From the NCBI RefSeq assembly GCF_002214805.1, contig NZ_CP019914.1, positions 806,001 to 870,000 on the forward strand: 64,000 bases of DNA, in the 5' to 3' direction. The translations under genes were made by a program, and so were the position numbers. Below the pieces are notes generated by a model. That model did not search any database. It was not told where the DNA came from and saw nothing but the letters and a program-made list of their open reading frames with translations. The stretch comes from Brachyspira hampsonii (GTDB taxonomy: Bacteria; Spirochaetota; Brachyspiria; Brachyspirales; Brachyspiraceae). This document shows, piece by piece, positions 5,346 through 21,583 of the stretch; position 1 is the first letter of the stretch; the number at the start of each line of letters is the position of its first letter.

Positions 5346-6434
5346 TTATATATTAGATACTATTATATCACCCATTTCAGAACATTTTACCTGTTTATAT
5401 AAATAAGTCATCATGTTATGTTTAGGCATTATATCTAATGTTCTATAACCATCATCTATAGCTCTGTAAACAGCCTTTTCTATATCTTCAGCTTCCTTTT
5501 CCATTTTAAAAGAATACTTAAACATCATAGCAAGAGAAAGTATAGTACCTATAGGATTAGCCAAATCCTTACCTGCAATATCAGGAGCAGAACCATGTAT
5601 AGGCTCATACATACCAATAGCTCCATCAGAAAGACTGGCAGAAGGTGCCATACCTATAGAACCGCTTATGACACTAGCCTCATCAGAAAGTATATCCCCA
5701 AACATATTTTCTGTAACTATAACGCCAAACTGAGAAGGATTAGCAGTTATCTGCATAGCCGCATTATCAACATACATATCATTATACGGAACATCACTGT
5801 ATTCTTTAGAGAGAGTATTCATAATTTCACGCCATAATTTGGAAGTATGAAGAACATTAGCTTTATCTACAGAAGTTAAAGGTTTTTTAAGATTTCTAGC
5901 CAAATCAAAAGCTACTTTTCCTATTCTTAATATCTCATCTTCCTTATAAACCATAAGATCAGTCGCCTGTCTTACACCATTAACTACTTCAAATTTATGC
6001 TCGCCAAAATACACACCTCCAGTAAGCTCTCTTACAATAACAAAATCAACCACATCTTTACATATACTTTCTTTAAGAGGAGAAGCATATTCTAAAGATT
6101 TTAATATTTTTATAGGTCTTATATTGGCATAAAGCTTCATTTCTTTACGTAGTTTTAATAAGCCTCTTTCTGGTCTGTTTTCCGGAGCTGCTTTATCCCA
6201 TTTAGGACCTCCTACAGAACCTAAAAGCACAGAATCAGACTTAATACATTTTTCCAAATTTTCATCAGTAAGAGGAACTCCGTATTTATCAATAGAACAG
6301 CCCCCCATATCAACATATTCTAAATTAAACTTATGAGAATATTTTTCAGCTATTTTATTTAATACATCAATAGCCTTGTCAACTATTTCAGGACCTACTC
6401 CGTCTCCTTTAATAACAACAATATTTTTTTCCAT
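5346..6434 (-). CDS. leuB: 3-isopropylmalate dehydrogenase
   Basis: Oxidatively decarboxylates 3-isopropylmalate to 2-oxoisocaproate with NAD, the third step of leucine synthesis in the cytosol. The 362-residue length is standard. KGDGVGPEIV near the N-terminus, the arginine-rich LRKEMKLYANIRP around 95-107, VDKANVLHTS around 190, and MFGDILSDEASVISGS around 244-259 are the family signature and metal/substrate ligands. It is the last gene of the operon and starts 6 bases after leuD. Tartrate dehydrogenase is a distant alternative that the operon context rules out. Confidence 0.97.
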   Translation of the reverse strand: MEKNIVVIKGDGVGPEIVDKAIDVLNKIAEKYSHKFNLEYVDMGGCSIDKYGVPLTDENLEKCIKSDSVLLGSVGGPKWDKAAPENRPERGLLKLRKEMKLYANIRPIKILKSLEYASPLKESICKDVVDFVIVRELTGGVYFGEHKFEVVNGVRQATDLMVYKEDEILRIGKVAFDLARNLKKPLTSVDKANVLHTSKLWREIMNTLSKEYSDVPYNDMYVDNAAMQITANPSQFGVIVTENMFGDILSDEASVISGSIGMAPSASLSDGAIGMYEPIHGSAPDIAGKDLANPIGTILSLAMMFKYSFKMEKEAEDIEKAVYRAIDDGYRTLDIMPKHNMMTYLYKQVKCSEMGDIIVSNI

Positions 6435-6440
6435 AAATAA

Positions 6441-6929
6441 TTACCCCTTATTCTTTATAGAGTTCAAAAGCCCATTAGAATTAATTATATTTTTAATAAA
6501 CTCTGGGAAAGGCTCTGCTTTATAGCTTTCATTTTTAGTAATATTTGTTATAACGCCGCTGTCAAAATCAACTTCAACTTCATCGCCATTGTCTATTTTT
6601 TTGCTTGCCTCTTCGCATTCAAGTATTGCAAGACCTATATTAATAGAGTTTCTGTAAAATATTCTGGCAAAAGAAGAAGCTATAACGCAGGATATACCAG
6701 ATTCTTTAATGGCAATAGGAGCATGCTCTCTTGAAGAACCGCATCCGAAATTCTCTCCTCCTACCATTATATCGCCTTTCTTTACCTTGCTTACAAAATC
6801 TTTATCAATATCTTCCATACAATGAGCTGCTAACTCTTTATGATTTGCAGTATTTAAATATCTTGCTGGAATAATAACATCAGTATCAACATTATTCCCA
6901 TATTTATGAACGAAACCTCTAGCTTTCAT
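6441..6929 (-). CDS. leuD: 3-isopropylmalate dehydratase small subunit
   Basis: The small, swivel-domain subunit of isopropylmalate isomerase, partner of LeuC. The 162-residue length fits the archaeal/clostridial-type LeuD rather than the roughly 200-residue enterobacterial form. [13 protein letters not shown] near the N-terminus and [18 protein letters not shown] around 58-75 are diagnostic. It lies 44 bases downstream of leuC and 6 bases upstream of leuB. Homoaconitase small subunits look similar, but the leu gene order decides. Confidence 0.95.
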
Positions 6930-6973
6930 TTATTTAATCTCTCCTATTTTATTATAATCATTTGTTATAATCA

Positions 6974-8221
6974 TTATTTAGGCTCTGTTATATATCCAGT
7001 CAAAGCACTGTATGCAGCAGTGGCAGGACTAGCTAAATATACTTTAGAAGTTTTATCTCCCATTCTTCCTACAAAGTTTCTATTAGTTGTAGTAACAGCA
7101 ACCTCATCATGGGCAAGTATTCCCATATATCCTCCCAAACAAGGTCCGCATGTAGGAGTAGATACCGCACAGCCCGCATCAATAAATATATCCATATAGC
7201 CTAATTTGATGCATTCTTTATAAACTTTCTGAGTAGCTGGTATAATTATGCATCTAACATTTTTAGCTATTTTCTTTCCTTTTAAAATGTTGGCAGCAGT
7301 TGCCATATCAGATAATCTTCCATTAGTACAAGAACCAATAACTACTTGATCAACTTTTATATCTTTTAATTCTTTAGCATCTTTTGTATTTTCTGGTAAA
7401 TGAGGACATGCTACTGTAGGCTCTATTGAAGATAAATCAATATCATATTCTTTTTCATATACCGCATCATCATCAGCTTTGAAAATAGTATAATCTCTTT
7501 TTACTATATCTTTTAAATATTCTATAGTTTGATTATCTACTTCAAATATTCCGTTTTTAGCACCTGCCTCAATAGCCATATTAGCAATACAAGCCCTGTC
7601 GTCCATAGTAAGAGAAGAAACACCCTCACATCTAAACTCCATAGATTTATATAAAGCCCCATCAACACCTATCATACCTATAATATGAAGTATAACATCT
7701 TTACCAGATACATTCGGCTTTAATTTACCTTTAAGATTAAATTTAATAGCAGAAGGCACCTTAAACCAAACCTGACCTGTAGCCATAGCAGCAGCCATAT
7801 CAGTGCTTCCAACACCTGTAGAAAAAGCCCCAAAAGCTCCATAAGTACAAGTATGAGAATCAGCACCTATTATAACTTCACCGGGAGCAACTAATCCTTT
7901 TTCCGGCAAAAGTGCATGCTCAACTCCCATATCGCCTACATCATAATAGTTTGAAATATCGTATTTATTAGCAAAATCTCTGCATTGTTTGCATTGCTCT
8001 GCAGCTTTAATATCTTTGTTCGGAGCAAAGTGATCCATAACCAAAGCGATCTTTTCTTTATCAAAAACCTTATCAAAACCGTATTTTTCAAATTCATTTA
8101 TAGCAACAGGGCTTGTTATATCATTACCTAAAACCAAATCAGTTTTAACCATAATAAGCTCGCCTGCCTCAACTTTATCAACACCGGCATGTGCAGCTAA
8201 AATTTTCTGAGTAATAGTCAT
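6974..8221 (-). CDS. leuC: 3-isopropylmalate dehydratase large subunit
   Basis: Aconitase-family subunit carrying a [4Fe-4S] cluster. With LeuD it isomerises 2- to 3-isopropylmalate. The cluster cysteines are visible in SCTNGR (around residue 298) and TCGPCLGG (around 357-360). [19 protein letters not shown] around 123-141 is another family motif. The 415-residue length is that of the archaeal/clostridial class. A terminator-like hairpin lies between it and the upstream leuA, which might reduce leuCDB expression relative to leuA. Confidence 0.96.
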
Positions 8222-8243
8222 ATTCGTATCCTTAAATTAAAAA

Positions 8244-8277
8244 AGGGCTTTTACAATTTCTTAATCGTATAAGCCCT
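8244..8277 (-). terminator. Intra-operon terminator-like hairpin between leuA and leuC
   Basis: On the minus strand the arms (8267-8277 and 8244-8254) form an 11-base stem with one mismatch and a 12-base loop, followed by TTTTTT. This is a good intrinsic terminator placed inside an otherwise continuous operon, 10 bases after the leuA stop. Confidence 0.7.
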
Positions 8278-8287
8278 ATAAAAATTA

Positions 8288-9784
8288 TTATAATTTATTT
8301 AATCCATTAACATAAGCTCTCAAACTAGCTTCAATAATATCTGTACTTACCGCTCTTCCTATTACAGTTTTATCATTAGAAGCTAACCTTACAATAACCT
8401 CTCCCAAAGCATCTTCACCCTCTGTAATAGCATTAATACTATAATTAACCAATTTAGCCTTATTAGAAGTAATAGAGTCTATAGCCCCGAAAGCCGCATC
8501 AATAGGTCCGTTTCCCTTTCCTATCCCCTCAACAATATTATTCTTACTATCCATAATTGAAACTGTAGCCAAAGAAGATATTGAATTACCGTCATTAACA
8601 ACAAATCCGTTTAATGTATAAATAGGATTTTCTGAATCATTATTACCTATTAATAATGCTTCTATATCTGAGTCAGTAACTATTTTCTTTTTATCAGCTA
8701 GATTTTTGAATTTTATAAATGCTTCCTCTAAAGACTTATCATCAATATCATAACCTAAAGATTCAATTCTGTCTTTGAAAGCATGCTTTCCGGAATGTTT
8801 TCCTAATACCATTTTATTCTGAGGTATTCCTATATCTTCAACATTCATAATCTCATAAGTAGAACGTTCTTTTAATACCCCATGCTGATGAATACCAGCC
8901 TCATGAGCAAAAGCATTGGCACCCACTATAGCCTTATTAGGAGCAACTACCATACCAGAAATAGTAGATAATAATTTTGAAATTTTATAAATGCGTTTTG
9001 TATTAACATCTGTATAAGCATTATAAAAATCTTTTCTAGTTTTAATACCCATTACAATTTCTTCTAAACTAGCATTGCCGGCTCTTTCGCCTATACCATT
9101 AATAGTGCATTCTACCTGAGTAGCTCCAGCTAAAACTGCAGATAAAGAATTAGCTGTACCAAGTCCTAAATCATCATGACAATGCACAGATATATCAACA
9201 TTATCTATACCCTTAACATTCTCTTTTAAATACTTTATTAAATCTGCCATTTCTAAAGGAGTGGTATATCCTACAGTATCAGGAACATTGATTGTAGTAG
9301 CACCGTTTTCTATAGCAGCAGAATAAGCCTGAGCTAAAAATTCTCTATCACTTCTTGAAGCATCTTCAGCAGAAAATTCTATAAACTCAAATTTAGTTTT
9401 AGCATAAGAAACAGATTCTTTTATAGTTTCCAATACCTGCTCTCTGGTCATCTCTAATTTATGCTTTAAATGTATATCGCTAGTAGCTATAAATGTATGA
9501 AGCATCGGATGTTTTGCCTCAGCAAGTGATTCATAAGCCCTATCTATATCTTTTTTATTGCATCTTGCCAAACTAGCTAGTTTAGCATTTTCTACAACTT
9601 TACTTACTTCTCTTATAGCATTAAAGTCATCGTCAGAACATATAGCAAAACCAGCTTCTATGACATCAACGCCTAATTTATCTAATTCGGCTGCCATTTC
9701 TAATTTTTCAGCCAAATTCATAGTACAACCAGGAGACTGCTCTCCGTCTCTTAAAGTAGTATCAAAAATCTTAATCTTTCTCAT
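8288..9784 (-). CDS. leuA: 2-isopropylmalate synthase
   Basis: Condenses acetyl-CoA with 2-oxoisovalerate, the committed step of leucine synthesis. FDTTLRDGEQSPG near the N-terminus is the DRE-TIM metallolyase signature, and VHCHDDLGLGTANSL around 200-214 carries the metal-binding histidines. The C-terminal region (about 390-498) matches the leucine-sensing regulatory domain, so feedback inhibition by leucine is expected. Length 498 is typical. It sits 82 bases after ilvC and is followed by a hairpin that may cause partial termination. Citramalate or homocitrate synthase are alternatives, but the leuCDB neighbours favour LeuA. Confidence 0.95.
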   Translation of the reverse strand: MRKIKIFDTTLRDGEQSPGCTMNLAEKLEMAAELDKLGVDVIEAGFAICSDDDFNAIREVSKVVENAKLASLARCNKKDIDRAYESLAEAKHPMLHTFIATSDIHLKHKLEMTREQVLETIKESVSYAKTKFEFIEFSAEDASRSDREFLAQAYSAAIENGATTINVPDTVGYTTPLEMADLIKYLKENVKGIDNVDISVHCHDDLGLGTANSLSAVLAGATQVECTINGIGERAGNASLEEIVMGIKTRKDFYNAYTDVNTKRIYKISKLLSTISGMVVAPNKAIVGANAFAHEAGIHQHGVLKERSTYEIMNVEDIGIPQNKMVLGKHSGKHAFKDRIESLGYDIDDKSLEEAFIKFKNLADKKKIVTDSDIEALLIGNNDSENPIYTLNGFVVNDGNSISSLATVSIMDSKNNIVEGIGKGNGPIDAAFGAIDSITSNKAKLVNYSINAITEGEDALGEVIVRLASNDKTVIGRAVSTDIIEASLRAYVNGLNKL

Positions 9785-9866
9785 TGTTAAAACCCTTATA
9801 ATAAAACATCATTTATAACTAAAGATGCTTTGGATTATAAAAAATATTTATTATAATATCTATATA

Positions 9867-10880
<1,014 letters not shown>

Positions 10881-10893
10881 TTATTATTTTTTA

Positions 10894-11421
10894 TTAAAAT
10901 TCAAAATTATTGATTATATTCATATCTGGAACATCATCGCCAAGCTGTATAGATGTTACCCCTGTTCTTGAAAGCTCTAATATATTAAAATCTTTTAATG
11001 CTTCTAAATATGCATCTATTACTGAAGCTGAAGCTGTTATTTCTACTGTAATGCTTTTATTTCCAATATAAAGTATAAGTCCGTTATAAGAATTGGTTAT
11101 ATCGCAGGCTTTGCGTCTATTACTATCATTAATTTCTATTTTTACCAAAAGAAAATCTCTTATTATGTTGTTGGAACTATCTATCAAATGTACAGAATGA
11201 ACTTCTATAAGTTTTGAAGTTTGTTTTATAACTTGATTTATATGAGAATCATCTCCCTCTGTAACTATAGTCATTCTTGAAATACTAGGAACACAAGTTG
11301 CAGAACATGTAATAGTTTCTATATTAAACCCTTTTTGACTGAATAATAAAGTTATTCTATTTAATACACCAGTAATATTATCTACAAATAAAACTAAAAC
11401 TCTTCTTTCTTTCTTATCCAT
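10894..11421 (-). CDS. ilvN: Acetolactate synthase small regulatory subunit
   Basis: Regulatory partner of IlvB. The N-terminal ACT domain (about residues 5-80) is recognisable from VLVLFVDNITGVLNRITLLFSQKGFNIETI, split here by description: VDNITGVLNRI then FSQKGFNIETI. It normally binds valine for feedback inhibition. The C-terminal half (about 85-170) is the second domain of the family. Length 175 is typical of IlvN/IlvH. It lies 20 bases after ilvB. The IlvH name would be equally valid. Confidence 0.93.
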   Translation of the reverse strand: MDKKERRVLVLFVDNITGVLNRITLLFSQKGFNIETITCSATCVPSISRMTIVTEGDDSHINQVIKQTSKLIEVHSVHLIDSSNNIIRDFLLVKIEINDSNRRKACDITNSYNGLILYIGNKSITVEITASASVIDAYLEALKDFNILELSRTGVTSIQLGDDVPDMNIINNFEF

Positions 11422-11441
11422 TTTTTTACTCCTGCTATTTA

Positions 11442-13115
11442 TTAATCTACTATTATGTCATCTATAGTTCCGCCGGCTGGTATCATAGGCAAAACTCTTA
11501 AATCTTTATCTATAACACATTCTATCCATACAGGACATTTACATTTTAATGCCTCTTCAAAAGCCGCCTCAAATTCTTTTATAGTTTCACATCGAAAACC
11601 TTTAGCTCCAAAACCTTCGGCCACTTTTACATAATCCATTTTTTTATTTATATCAGTACTTGAATATCTCTTACCATAAAATATAGTCTGCCATTGTCTT
11701 ACCATACCCAATGTACTATTATTAAGTATGATACTTATAACAGGAAGATCATATTCAACGGCAGTAGCCACTTCATTTAAATTCATATAAAAAGAACCGT
11801 CTCCTGTTATATGTATTACTCTTCTATCTGGTTTAGCAACCTGACATCCTAAAGCGGCACCGTATCCGAATCCCATAGTACCTAATCCGCCGCTTGTTAT
11901 GAAACTTCTAGGCTTGGTATGTCTTATATACTGAACAGCCCACATTTGATGCTGACCTACATCTGTAACATAAACAGCTTCATCTTTAGTTTTATCCCCT
12001 ATTATATCCATAACTTTATTTGGATAAATTCCATCTTTATCAGTATTTCTGTCAGAATCTTCTTTCATTTCTTTAGCTTTCAAGTCTGATAAATATTTTA
12101 CCCACTCATCATCATCTACTCTTTTTACTAACTTATTAAATCTATCTAGTACATCATTTAAATCGCCTATTATACTATAATCAACATGAACATTTTTATT
12201 AATTTCGCTTCTATCAATATCTATATGAACCTTTTTAGCAACCCCTCCGAATTTAGAAGTATTTAAAGCAACTCTATCGCTGAATCTTGTACCTACAGCA
12301 AGTATTAAATCAGCTTCATTCATAACTTTATTAGCTGTGGCAGATCCATGCATTCCCAAAAGACCTATATTTAATTTTTCATTATATCCTAATACTCCGG
12401 CTCCCATTAATGTATGCACTGAAGGTATATTAGAATTAATCATAAACGCTCTTAATTTATCGCTTGAATCCTTAGCACCGCCTCCGAAATATATAATAGG
12501 TCTTTTAGATTCATTTATTAATTTTGCAACTAAATCTATAGTCTTCTCATCTTCTGAACTTATTTCTATATGTTTTGGAATAAATTTTTCTCTTTTAGTA
12601 AATTCTGTTTCTGCAAATGTGAAATTTTTTGGTATATCTATTAAAACAGGCCCTTTTCTTCCAGTATTAGCTATTACAAATGCTTTTCTTATGGTGTTTG
12701 CAAGTTCATTAATATCCCTTACAACAAAATTATGTTTAGTTATAGGCATTGTTATTCCGGCAATAAAAACTTCCTGAAATGAATCTTTACCTATTAAACT
12801 TTCCGGAACATTAGCAGTTATTGCAATTAAAGGAACACTGTCCATATAAGCGGTGGCTAAAGGTGTTACCAAATTAGTTGCCCCCGGTCCGCTAGTTGCA
12901 ATTACAACTCCGGTTTTTCCGCTTGCTCTGGCATAACCGTCAGCAGCATGACATGCTCCTGCCTCATCTACAGGCATTATATGTTTTATTTTATCTCTAT
13001 ATTTATAAATAGCATCGTATATAAATAAAGCAGCACCGCCCGGATATCCGAATACTGTATCTACACCTTCTTCTATTAGAACTTCCATTATTATATCAGA
13101 ACCGTTTAACTTCAT
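11442..13115 (-). CDS. ilvB: Acetolactate synthase large subunit
   Basis: Thiamine-diphosphate enzyme making acetolactate or acetohydroxybutyrate, the first common step of branched-chain amino-acid synthesis. The activating glutamate is in VDEAGACHAADGYARASGKTG-like sequence (VDEAGACHAADGYARAS at about 49-65). The ThDP/Mg motif runs from GDGSFYMNLNEV to IILNNSTLGM (about 440-475). The central FAD domain is present. The 557-residue length is normal. A TAAGGAG site precedes the ATG. It is the first structural gene of the operon, 120 bases after the leader ORF. Confidence 0.97.
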   Translation of the reverse strand: MKLNGSDIIMEVLIEEGVDTVFGYPGGAALFIYDAIYKYRDKIKHIMPVDEAGACHAADGYARASGKTGVVIATSGPGATNLVTPLATAYMDSVPLIAITANVPESLIGKDSFQEVFIAGITMPITKHNFVVRDINELANTIRKAFVIANTGRKGPVLIDIPKNFTFAETEFTKREKFIPKHIEISSEDEKTIDLVAKLINESKRPIIYFGGGAKDSSDKLRAFMINSNIPSVHTLMGAGVLGYNEKLNIGLLGMHGSATANKVMNEADLILAVGTRFSDRVALNTSKFGGVAKKVHIDIDRSEINKNVHVDYSIIGDLNDVLDRFNKLVKRVDDDEWVKYLSDLKAKEMKEDSDRNTDKDGIYPNKVMDIIGDKTKDEAVYVTDVGQHQMWAVQYIRHTKPRSFITSGGLGTMGFGYGAALGCQVAKPDRRVIHITGDGSFYMNLNEVATAVEYDLPVISIILNNSTLGMVRQWQTIFYGKRYSSTDINKKMDYVKVAEGFGAKGFRCETIKEFEAAFEEALKCKCPVWIECVIDKDLRVLPMIPAGGTIDDIIVD

Positions 13116-13235
13116 TAAATAACTCCTTATGTTTTATAGCATTTTACTTTTCTTATTAGTATTTCTACTTATAGAAATTTTATTTTTAAATGTATTATAT
13201 TAAATAATGTATTTTATAATAAAAAGATTGTAATA

Positions 13236-13388
13236 TTACAGGATATTGACAAGAATAGAGAGGAGAATGTTTAAGAAAAAAATAGTTTTTGAAGATTTAT
13301 TTTGTTTATAAAAATTAGATGCAGATGCTGGATTTTTTTTCATATCATAAAAAACAGCATTCATGCTATTAATAGATGATGCATTCAT
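13236..13388 (-). CDS. Candidate branched-chain amino-acid leader peptide (ilvL-like)
   Basis: A 50-codon ORF directly upstream of ilvB. The start at 13388 has an excellent AGAAGGAG site six bases before it. The peptide ends FFLNILLSILVNIL and stop: nine of the last twelve residues are Leu, Ile or Val. That terminal stretch uses CTC, CTC, GTC, ATC and CTG, codons that are scarce in the neighbouring genes, where TTA, CTT, ATA and GTA dominate. This is what a translational attenuation leader should look like: ribosomes stalling on scarce charged tRNAs at the control codons. A promoter sits just upstream. I could not find a convincing GC-rich terminator between its stop and ilvB, so the readout could instead be translational. 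Not a known named gene; function is inferred. Confidence 0.6.
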   Translation of the reverse strand: MNASSINSMNAVFYDMKKNPASASNFYKQNKSSKTIFFLNILLSILVNIL

Positions 13389-13417
13389 CTTTATTCTCCT
13401 TCTGATATTTGCTTTAT

Positions 13418-13445
13418 ATTATAATATTTTTGAGTAATATTGCAA
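13418..13445 (-). promoter_or_regulatory. Promoter of the leader-ilv-leu operon
   Basis: On the minus strand TTGCAA (13440-13445) and TATAAT (13418-13423) are spaced by 16 bases. The expected transcript starts about 10-15 bases before the leader ribosome site. Confidence 0.65.
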
Positions 13446-13489: not shown

Positions 13490-13518
13490 TTGACAATATA
13501 AATTATTTTAAGTATACT
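13490..13518 (+). promoter_or_regulatory. Sigma-70-type promoter for the SanA-like gene
   Basis: TTGACA (13490-13495) and TATACT (13513-13518) are spaced by 17 bases, diverging from the ilv operon promoter about 45 bases away. Confidence 0.7.
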
Positions 13519-13544: not shown

Positions 13545-14378
13545 ATGAAGATAGTAAAGATATTAAAAGATAGATACAAAAATAAAATATTATATATTAA
13601 AAATAATAAAAGAATAATAGAAAATAGAATAGAAAAGAAAAGCTATATATATAAATTTATAAATTATATACTATTCATTTTCATTTCTATTTTAAGTTTT
13701 ATTCCTGAAATTATTATTTTATCTTTAATATGCTCAATAATATTATATTCATCTGTTTCATTATATTCAAAAAGATATATATATTCATCAATAGAAAAAA
13801 TACCATATAATGATGTTGCGTTAGTATTGGGCACAAGCAAGTATATGAACAATGGTAAAATAAATATGTATTTCAAATTCAGAATGGAAGCAGCTTATGA
13901 ATTATATAAAAGCGGAAAAGTGAAATATATACTTGTAAGCGGAGATAACAGATATAAATCATATAATGAACCCAGACAAATGCGTCTTGATTTAATAAAA
14001 TTGGGAGTTAATAAAAATCATATATTTTTGGATTTCGCAGGATTTAGAACTAGAGATTCTATTATAAGAGCAAACAAAGTTTTTGAACTTACTAATTTTA
14101 CAATAGTATCTCAGCCTTTTCATAATGAAAGAGCAATACTAATAGCAAGACAAAAAAATATTAATGCCATAGCCTATAATGCAAATAATGTGAGAAAACT
14201 TTATAGAATAAGACAATTTCCAAGAGAATTAGGGGCAAGGGTTTTAATGTTTATTGATATTTTATTAAACAGACCTCCTAAATTCTATGGGGATGTTATT
14301 AAAATAGAAGAAAGAGAAGATTCTCAAACTAATAAAAGCAATAAAAAAATAGATAAAAATAAAAAATTAAATAATTAA
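13545..14378 (+). CDS. SanA/YdcF-like DUF218 membrane protein
   Basis: A 277-residue protein with one strong membrane segment around residues 35-75 and a DUF218 domain after it (about 88-245). Recognisable segments are VALVLGTSKYMNNGKIN, YILVSGDNRYKSYNEP, DFAGFRTRDSIIRA and VSQPFHNERAI. E. coli SanA affects envelope permeability to vancomycin at high temperature. The domain faces the periplasm in that family. The C-terminus (about 250-277) is a Lys/Asn/Ser-rich tail. The biochemical activity of DUF218 is not settled. It lies 34 bases before gltS and may share its transcript. Confidence 0.85.
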   Translation: MKIVKILKDRYKNKILYIKNNKRIIENRIEKKSYIYKFINYILFIFISILSFIPEIIILSLICSIILYSSVSLYSKRYIYSSIEKIPYNDVALVLGTSKYMNNGKINMYFKFRMEAAYELYKSGKVKYILVSGDNRYKSYNEPRQMRLDLIKLGVNKNHIFLDFAGFRTRDSIIRANKVFELTNFTIVSQPFHNERAILIARQKNINAIAYNANNVRKLYRIRQFPRELGARVLMFIDILLNRPPKFYGDVIKIEEREDSQTNKSNKKIDKNKKLNN

Positions 14379-19901: not shown

Positions 19902-20255
19902 TTATTTACCGCCTGCTGCTTTTAAAAGACTAACTATGTTTTTATGCTTTTCTTCTGAAGCATAAGTCAAAGCTGTTTTATCTTTTCTATCTTTTAAATT
20001 AACTTTGGCACCAGCATCAATTAAAAGTCTTACAACATTAATATGTCCGTTTTCTGATGCTTTCATTAAGGCATTATCCCCTTTAGAGTCCTGTTCATTG
20101 ATATTGGCACCGTCTCTAAGCAGTTCTCTAACCTTTTTGATATCACCATTTTCTGCAGCATTTACTAAATCTACATTACTTTTAGAAAATGCATTGTTAC
20201 AAATTAATAATGATAGAATAGTAAAAAATAAAAATATTTTTTTATTTAATTTCAT
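19902..20255 (-). CDS. Small secreted ankyrin-repeat protein (copy 1)
   Basis: 117 residues: a signal peptide (KIFLFFTILSLLICNNAFS) and about three ankyrin repeats, for example DNALMKASENGHINVVRLLIDAGAKVNLKD. The last repeat ends KHKNIVSLLKAAGGK. It is one of three related genes within 1.7 kb. Ankyrin repeats bind proteins, and the signal peptide places this one outside the cytosol. No lipobox is evident. The C-terminal ending LKAAGGK is nearly identical in all three copies, pointing to duplication. The partner is unknown. Confidence 0.85.
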   Translation of the reverse strand: MKLNKKIFLFFTILSLLICNNAFSKSNVDLVNAAENGDIKKVRELLRDGANINEQDSKGDNALMKASENGHINVVRLLIDAGAKVNLKDRKDKTALTYASEEKHKNIVSLLKAAGGK

Positions 20256-20674
20256 AAAAAACTCCTATATTAAAAAATTTACATGAAAATCTCATATTAT
20301 AAAATCGTCATTTTTTATTTTTACAAAAATATTTTTTAAAAAATTAAATAAATTTTATAAAACAATTTAATAATTCATATATGACAAATTAATTTCTTAA
20401 TATTAAGAACAATATATTTATGATATAATTCAAAGACATAATCTAAATCAGTTTCTACATATTTATATTCGATATTAATATATAAGAACAGCATTAAAAA
20501 CATAACAACTATTTTAGCATATCATTCAGAATTTATATAACTCTGTATTTAGTATATATTAGCACCTGAATTATAAGTTATATTGCTATTAATATTTTTT
20601 AAAATATATACATGTACTAATGAGACTGTATTAATAATTATCAATAAAAATATAATTTTCATTATAGCTTAATT
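20256..20674. other. Intergenic region between ankyrin genes
   Basis: 419 bases of AT-rich DNA between two paralogous ankyrin genes. I see no promoter of good quality, no strong hairpin and no ankyrin remnant. The only ORF of note is the weak 37-codon one described separately. Confidence 0.4.
20549..20662 (-). CDS. Possible small secreted peptide or gene remnant
   Basis: 37 codons beginning MKIIFLLIIINTVSLVHVYI, which looks like a signal peptide followed by about 17 polar residues. It lies 12 bases downstream of an ankyrin gene on the same strand. There is no clear ribosome site. It could be the leftover 5' end of a lost paralogue, or chance in AT-rich DNA. Confidence 0.2.
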   Translation of the reverse strand: MKIIFLLIIINTVSLVHVYILKNINSNITYNSGANIY

Positions 20675-21109
20675 TTATTTCGCACCTGCTGCTTTTAATA
20701 TTTTTACTATATTCTGATGTCCTCTTTGAGTAGCATAACCTAATGCTGTTTTTCCGTATTTATCTTTCATATTAATATTAGCTCCTGCTTCTATAAGCAT
20801 AGAAACTATTTGGACATGTCCTCTGCTTGATGCTCTCATTAAAGCTGTTCTCTTATTATTATTAACATCATTCAAATTAACTTTCTTACTTATCAATAAT
20901 TTTACAACTTCAGGAAGTCCCTCCTCTGATGCTTCTATCAGCGGTGTTTCTCCTTGTCTATCTCTTGTATTAAGATCAACTCCTGAATTTATTAATTCTA
21001 TAGCTCTTTTAGTATCTTTCTTCTCCAAAGCCTCCATTAAAGGTGTCATATTCCTTTGAGCAAAAATATTCATACTAATAATAAAAATTAAAACTGTAAT
21101 TTTTTTCAT
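20675..21109 (-). CDS. Small secreted ankyrin-repeat protein (copy 2)
   Basis: 144 residues: signal peptide (KITVLIFIISMNIFAQ) and four ankyrin repeats, such as GETPLIEASEEGLPEVVKLL and RTALMRASSRGHVQIVSMLI. The end, HQNIVKILKAAGAK, is almost the same as in the next gene upstream (21128-21583). It lies only 18 bases after that gene, so the two are co-transcribed. An ATATCTCC-type ribosome site is weak but present on the minus strand (GGAGATATAATT before ATG). Function unknown. Confidence 0.88.
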   Translation of the reverse strand: MKKITVLIFIISMNIFAQRNMTPLMEALEKKDTKRAIELINSGVDLNTRDRQGETPLIEASEEGLPEVVKLLISKKVNLNDVNNNKRTALMRASSRGHVQIVSMLIEAGANINMKDKYGKTALGYATQRGHQNIVKILKAAGAK

Positions 21110-21127
21110 AATTATATCTCCTTAATT

Positions 21128-21583
21128 TTATTTTGCACCTGATGCTTTTAAAATTTTTACTATATCTTGATGTCCTCTTTGATTTGCATAAGTTAATGCA
21201 GTTCTTCCTCTATTATCTTTAATATTTATGTCGGCACCCGCATTTACAAGAAGTTTTACTATATCAGTGTAGCCTTTAGAAGAAGCTCTCATTAATGCAG
21301 TTCTGCCCCATTTGCTTTTGAGATTCAAATTTACTTTATTTTCTATAAGCAATTTTACAACTTCTATATACCCGCCTTCTGCTGCTTCTATTAAAGCATT
21401 TTCGCCTACTCTATCCTGCTGATTAATATTAGCACCATTATTTATAAGTGATTTTACCTCATTTATATCGCCTCTTCCTGCCGCATCAATAATGGCTATG
21501 TTGCTTTTTGAAAATGCATTTAAACAAAATATCAAAAATAAAACAAATGAAAATATTAGTATTTTAGAATTCAAATTATCCAT
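21128..21583 (-). CDS. Small secreted ankyrin-repeat protein (copy 3)
   Basis: 151 residues with an N-terminal hydrophobic signal (KILIFSFVLFLIFCLNAFSKS) and four ankyrin repeats (GENALIEAAEGGYIEVVKLL, RTALMRASSKGYTDIVKLL and others). The signal peptide end NAFSKSN and the early repeats match copy 1, while the C-terminus matches copy 2, so the three genes form one duplicated family with possible recombination between members. First gene of a two-gene unit with copy 2. Function unknown. Confidence 0.88.
   Translation of the reverse strand: MDNLNSKILIFSFVLFLIFCLNAFSKSNIAIIDAAGRGDINEVKSLINNGANINQQDRVGENALIEAAEGGYIEVVKLLIENKVNLNLKSKWGRTALMRASSKGYTDIVKLLVNAGADINIKDNRGRTALTYANQRGHQDIVKILKASGAK

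Follow-up and report, generated by a model that had tools for sequence, protein, structure and literature searches.

The ilvBNC-leuACDB operon of Brachyspira is preceded by a short open reading frame (ORF) that, at a probability we would put at roughly four in five, serves as a leader sensing branched-chain aminoacyl-tRNAs, and does so in the absence of the terminator of a classical attenuator. The ORF, its reading frame, its Shine-Dalgarno (SD) site, its promoter and its control codons are conserved when genomes are compared, and from these we infer that the leader is translated, that ribosomes stall on it and that it regulates the genes behind it.

Leader ORF and operon organization

The window, that is the whole stretch of 64,000 nucleotides that was analysed, is part of a 3.19-Mb single-contig Brachyspira genome, and the features discussed here are collected in Table 1. 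The 50-codon ORF with its strong SD site was found exactly as a first-pass annotation of this DNA had described it. The same is true of its tail, in which nine of the last 12 residues are Leu, Ile or Val and which carries the codons CTC CTC TCT ATT CTT GTC AAT ATC CTG, and of the promoter ahead of the leader, which proved to be conserved. The leader ATG is preceded by GAAGGAGAATAAAG in the window, and the surroundings of the -35 box read TATTGCAAT or a one-base variant of it in 23 of the 24 genomes compared. Judging from the position of the promoter, transcription would be expected to start near 13411. The genes from ilvB to leuB lie on the same strand with short gaps between them and were therefore taken as one putative operon.

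Two other parts of the window were noted in passing. The divergent neighbour of the leader (13545-14378) encodes a DUF218/SanA-like protein and has a strong promoter-like site, TTGACA-17-TATACT, at 13490-13518. At 19902-21583 three genes lie in tandem; they have ankyrin-like repeats, and their N-termini resemble signal sequences.

Table 1. Features of the leader region and the putative operon (positions in the window)
Feature	Position	Strand	Remarks
Sigma-70-type promoter TTGCAA-16-TATAAT	13418..13445	-	Conserved among Brachyspira genomes
Leader SD site AAGGAG	13396..13401	-	SD of this type ahead of the leader start in 24/24 genomes
Leader peptide ORF, 50 codons (putative)	13236..13388	-	MNASSINSMNAVFYDMKKNPASASNFYKQNKSSKTIFFLNILLSILVNIL; no protein family match; indels 11/11 multiples of three
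Candidate control region, last 14 codons	13239..13280	-	Leu/Ile/Val-rich, with rare CTC, GTC, ATC, CTG; from codon statistics and comparison
Spacer, leader stop to ilvB, 120 bases	13116..13235	-	AT-rich, G-poor, no intrinsic terminator; candidate Rho zone (inferred)
Palindrome	13160..13177	-	TTTCTATAAGTAGAAATA; weak hairpin, -3.7 kcal/mol; in 16/17 genomes of the window's clade, rare elsewhere
ilvB SD site AAGGAG	13123..13128	-	
Operon ilvB-ilvN-ilvC-leuA-leuC-leuD-leuB (putative)	5346..13115	-	Gene matches from NCBIfam; same strand, short gaps
ilvB	11442-13115	-	Above NCBIfam cut-off
ilvN	10894-11421	-	Above NCBIfam cut-off
ilvC	9867-10862	-	Above NCBIfam cut-off
leuA	8288-9784	-	Above NCBIfam cut-off
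leuC	6974-8221	-	Above NCBIfam cut-off
leuD	6441-6929	-	Above NCBIfam cut-off
leuB	5346-6434	-	Above NCBIfam cut-off

Conservation of the leader among Brachyspira genomes

Of 26 Brachyspira genomes, 24 yielded the region upstream of ilvB; in one of the other two it is cut off by a contig edge, and in the other no ilvB reached the threshold of the search. These 24 genomes fall into three clades and are relatives of one another, and the counts given here are not independent events. The genome without ilvB (G019, 2.0 Mb, same genus) had no ilvD either, and is probably that of a branched-chain amino-acid auxotroph which has lost the operon and the leader together.

An ORF with its own SD site and a tail of Leu, Ile and Val was present in all 24 genomes and in all three clades. 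Its length ranged from 24 to 50 amino acids and its N-terminus drifted: the leader has 46-50 amino acids in the 17 genomes of the window's clade, 24 in the five genomes of the pilosicoli clade (MKSFFKHFNQTNISIILLSLIIIL and near variants), and 43 and 45 in the two genomes of a third, more distant clade. In the tails, of which LNILLSILVNIL, ISIILLSLIIIL and VNLVLSILINIL are examples, Leu, Ile and Val interchange while the class of residue is kept (NLVLSILINIL vs NILLSILVNIL). Twelve pairwise comparisons showed that all 11 indels in the ORF were multiples of three, against three of 26 in the spacer, and that the substitutions in the ORF were spread about equally over the three codon positions. 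Indels in threes together with evenly spread substitutions mean, therefore, that the frame matters more than the peptide product. A kept frame and tail within a drifting peptide is the mark of a leader peptide of the ribosome-mediated, amino-acid type. As a test, the first-pass annotation had proposed to look among relatives for an ORF, frame and Leu/Ile/Val codons that are kept with variable wording elsewhere, and this was the pattern seen in the 24 genomes; its proposal that branched-chain control codons make this ORF a leader peptide is thus supported by conservation, as well as by the classical form found in a sister genus (see below).

Candidate control codons

Background codon use was calculated over 17,298 codons from 50 long ORFs in the window; there CTC and CTG make up 1.6% and 1.4% of the Leu codons, ATC 3.8% of the Ile codons and GTC 2.4% of the Val codons. 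When the 13 codons of the window's tail were re-drawn synonymously 100,000 times, no re-draw was as improbable as the tail itself, and its number of C-ending codons was equalled in 2 per 100,000. In the 14 codons at the end of each of the 24 leaders, Leu was encoded by CTC in 51 and by CTG in 24 of 125 cases, Val by GTC in 14 of 14, and Ile by ATT or ATC in 107 of 112, with ATA in 5 of 112 compared with 67% in the window genes. The Asn and Ser codons of the same stretch were near background; among the Phe codons TTC was in excess, for the most part because of one group of related genomes. All 24 leaders have CTG as the Leu codon closest to the stop codon, or to a final TTA, and the rare codons were largely confined to the leader tail.

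The genome of the window has tRNA-Leu genes with the anticodons CAA, TAA, TAG and GAG, one of each being found. From this set and the codon use it follows that the leader relies on the tRNAs with anticodons GAG and TAG and mostly bypasses the one that reads TTA. CTC and CTT would be read by tRNA-Leu-GAG, CTG and CTA by tRNA-Leu-UAG, and ATT and ATC by tRNA-Ile-GAU. Under the theory of selective charging, equal tRNA amounts would favour TTA, the commonest Leu codon (PMC1183508); the leader mostly avoids TTA, counter to that expectation. With its rare Leu, Ile and Val codons chosen so one-sidedly, this leader is a case on which theories of selective tRNA charging can be tried cleanly.

Searches for terminators and RNA structure

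In none of the 24 Brachyspira genomes was an intrinsic terminator found in the interval from the leader to ilvB. No hairpin followed by a U-run was better than -0.5 kcal/mol in that interval, whereas the terminator hairpins at other gene ends of the window reach -8 to -19 kcal/mol; the scan agrees with the earlier impression that there is no obvious GC-rich terminator before ilvB. A T-box covariance model matched none of the 26 Brachyspira genomes, and Rfam, at gathering and permissive thresholds, gave no relevant family in the leader region, the sole weak match being a microRNA model on the opposite strand. The single fold of the window leader was not more stable than shuffles (z -0.74). Consensus folds of the three clades contained no common downstream structure that could be an antiterminator, and the main recurring helix, seen in two clades, paired the leader's own SD site with the control codons. 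A pairing of CUCCU with the leader's own SD was also considered and set aside: it beat synonymous re-draws in most genomes and did not beat a permutation of the same codons. Because the terminator, which is a defining feature of a classical attenuator, was tested for and is absent, the Brachyspira leader is filed here as one that would work like an attenuator and not as a classical member.

Leaders in the sister genus and in other relatives

A Leu/Ile/Val-rich leader is also present at the same operon genes in two genomes of a sister genus, which belongs to the same family. In G026 (L122:3808-3953) an SD site and the ORF MQSLLVIIIIAILVAFYSVTQREA (MQSLLVIIIIAILVAF...) are followed by a terminator of -17.3 kcal/mol before ilvB, and in G027 (L123:3277-3414) a GTG-started ORF, VVKLTNTIIINIIIGLSIPNLKMRH (VVKLTNTIIINIIIGLSI...), is followed by a terminator of -13.5 before ilvD-ilvB. 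By their predicted layout both devices are textbook Leu/Ile/Val leader-plus-terminator attenuators, and they differ from the Brachyspira leader in ending in strong intrinsic terminators. The simplest history would start from a classical attenuator, with Brachyspira losing the terminator or exchanging it for another device; alternatively, the terminator was possibly gained in the sister genus.

In another genus of the same family (G028, L124:5279-5434), an SD-preceded Ile/Leu-rich ORF (MLFKIKKNVSLKKEIINIILDIILKIILQSK...) lies between ilvD and ilvB and reads through the ilvB start and SD site. This ORF may act as a leader, controlling ilvB through the overlap, or it may be there by chance. Clostridia, Oligosphaera and other bacteria also have candidate Leu/Ile/Val-rich leader ORFs, which lie some 70-205 bases ahead of ilvB (L189, L206, L215, L224 and L226). 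In the Brachyspira genomes ilvD sits elsewhere, away from the ilvB operon, and no second leader was seen at the ilvD loci examined there. No His- or Thr-rich leaders were found near hisG and thrC in the window's genome, and trpE had no match in it.

Proposed mechanism and alternatives

We propose that the ORF is translated and senses charged tRNA-Leu (and tRNA-Ile and tRNA-Val) on behalf of ilvBNC-leuACDB. A ribosome would begin at the strong leader SD site, cross an N-terminal stretch of no importance and then meet the C-terminal run of genome-rare Leu, Ile and Val codons. With branched-chain aminoacyl-tRNAs in plenty it would get to the stop codon and depart; with these tRNAs scarce it would stall in the run, and ilvB would be expressed. 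For the off-step we favour termination by Rho within the leader tail and the 120-base spacer, which carry C and are poor in G. This choice is made by exclusion, the other off-steps weighed having found less support, and we put it at somewhat short of even odds. The stalled ribosome would then mask the region where Rho loads, as in E. coli tnaC. Rho is encoded in Brachyspira. Ranked against all stretches of the window, coding ones included, the tail plus spacer stood at 2.4% for low G content and at 0.9% for its long G-free run; its value of C minus G was reached by 18% of window stretches. Its rut-like composition is only suggestive. Taken as a whole, a terminator-free, probably Rho-dependent sensor of branched-chain tRNAs with isoacceptor-restricted codons, derived from a classical ilv attenuator whose classical form is kept in the sister genus, is offered as a tentative account, more doubtful than probable. 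In Streptomyces coelicolor, mutation of the candidate control codons of an ilvB leader had no effect (PMC1262725), and such leaders can therefore mislead.

The off-step could instead lie at the ilvB SD site, if the CUCCU of the tandem Leu codons paired with its AGGAG and blocked ilvB translation unless a stalled ribosome covered it. CTCCT occurs in the leader tail of 21 of the 24 genomes, the actinobacterial LEU element is proposed to pair a run of Leu codons with a downstream SD site (PMC1262725), and in folding computations the ilvB SD took on average 2.5 kcal/mol to open, but 1.5 kcal/mol once a ribosome was placed on the two Leu codons. However, the cost was 1.8 kcal/mol with the ribosome at the stop codon, so that the switch predicted is a very small one. 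Pairing of the tail is stronger with the leader's own SD than with that of ilvB, the pairing with the latter is mostly no better than that of synonymous tails outside the pilosicoli clade, and L013, L023 and L024 retain the leader but not CTCCT. We consider such a switch unlikely; the translational control suggested in the first-pass annotation received no clear support from the pairing controls or from folding with placed ribosomes. Its other suggestion, an AT-rich structure, fared no better in the scan of the 24 leaders for hairpins and U-runs. A weak AT-rich intrinsic terminator or pause hairpin missed by the scans is improbable, the best candidate being the palindrome at 13160-13177. Of the 17 genomes in the window's clade, 16 keep this palindrome, which occurs almost nowhere else and may form a hairpin or bind a protein. 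A fold is predicted for it, though a weak one (-3.7 to -4.6 kcal/mol), yet no U-tract follows it, it is broken in L008 and absent from the pilosicoli clade and from L023 and L024, and no hairpin with a U-run was more stable than -0.5 kcal/mol in the 24 leaders.

The palindrome could also be the operator of a protein, or an internal promoter at the leader end (extended -10-like TGTTATAAT) could control ilvB, the leader then being incidental. Such a promoter would fit with CTGTTATAAT, which some genomes of the window's clade have where the leader ends. Neither a promoter nor an operator would require a conserved frame and branched-chain codons, however; the CTG codon is kept in all clades, even where no TATAAT comes after it, and the palindrome does not recur as a regulon, so that this explanation seems to us very unlikely. 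Two operator candidates were tried and rejected: TTTCTATNNNTAGAAATA, as a palindromic regulon operator, gave only scattered other sites, and the sole other genomic copy of TATTGCAATATTA sits inside an ORF. That the ORF makes a functional small hydrophobic protein and is no sensor is hardly credible. It does look translated, with its strong SD site and hydrophobic C-terminus, but a leader of 24-50 amino acids with a drifting N-terminus and no family match, lying always directly ahead of ilvB and with its rare codons largely in the tail, argues against such a protein.

Comparison with known systems

The classical ribosome-mediated attenuators of branched-chain operons include those of the E. coli ilvB, ilvGMEDA and leu leaders. 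Like them, the Brachyspira leader is a short ORF that follows an SD site, has its Leu, Ile and Val codons in a cluster and lies immediately ahead of an ilv-leu operon; it differs in that neither an intrinsic terminator nor an antiterminator was found in the 24 genomes and the spacer is AT-rich and G-poor. In E. coli tnaC a Rho-dependent off-step has been shown, and free tryptophan is sensed through the nascent peptide, whereas in Brachyspira the peptide sequence drifts and the codons are kept. For actinobacterial cysteine leaders without terminators Rho has been proposed (PMC1262725); these and tnaC share with the Brachyspira leader the position of the control residues near the stop codon and the lack of an intrinsic terminator. 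The actinobacterial LEU element upstream of leuA is likewise a Leu-run leader with no obvious terminator, and its Leu codons are able to pair with a downstream SD site (PMC1262725). Compared on pairing, the Brachyspira leader seems to differ from it: pairing with the ilvB SD is mostly not above the codon controls and CUCCU is absent in some species. In another spirochaete, Leptospira, a candidate RNA element also lies upstream of ilvB: the WRC-14-1 motif, a weak riboswitch candidate known from seven sequences (PMC8632094), which is not described as a leader ORF and is set apart from the Brachyspira leader by that description.

Leader peptides are well known from branched-chain operons, other examples being those of Staphylococcus aureus ilvD (PMC5794164) and Mycobacterium tuberculosis ilvB1 (PMC13236596). 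No report of leader-peptide control of a Brachyspira amino-acid operon was found in the literature searched, which covered few subscription journals. Brachyspira and its sister genus provide a natural comparison of a leader without and with a terminator, one that makes off-switching by terminator-less leaders directly testable.
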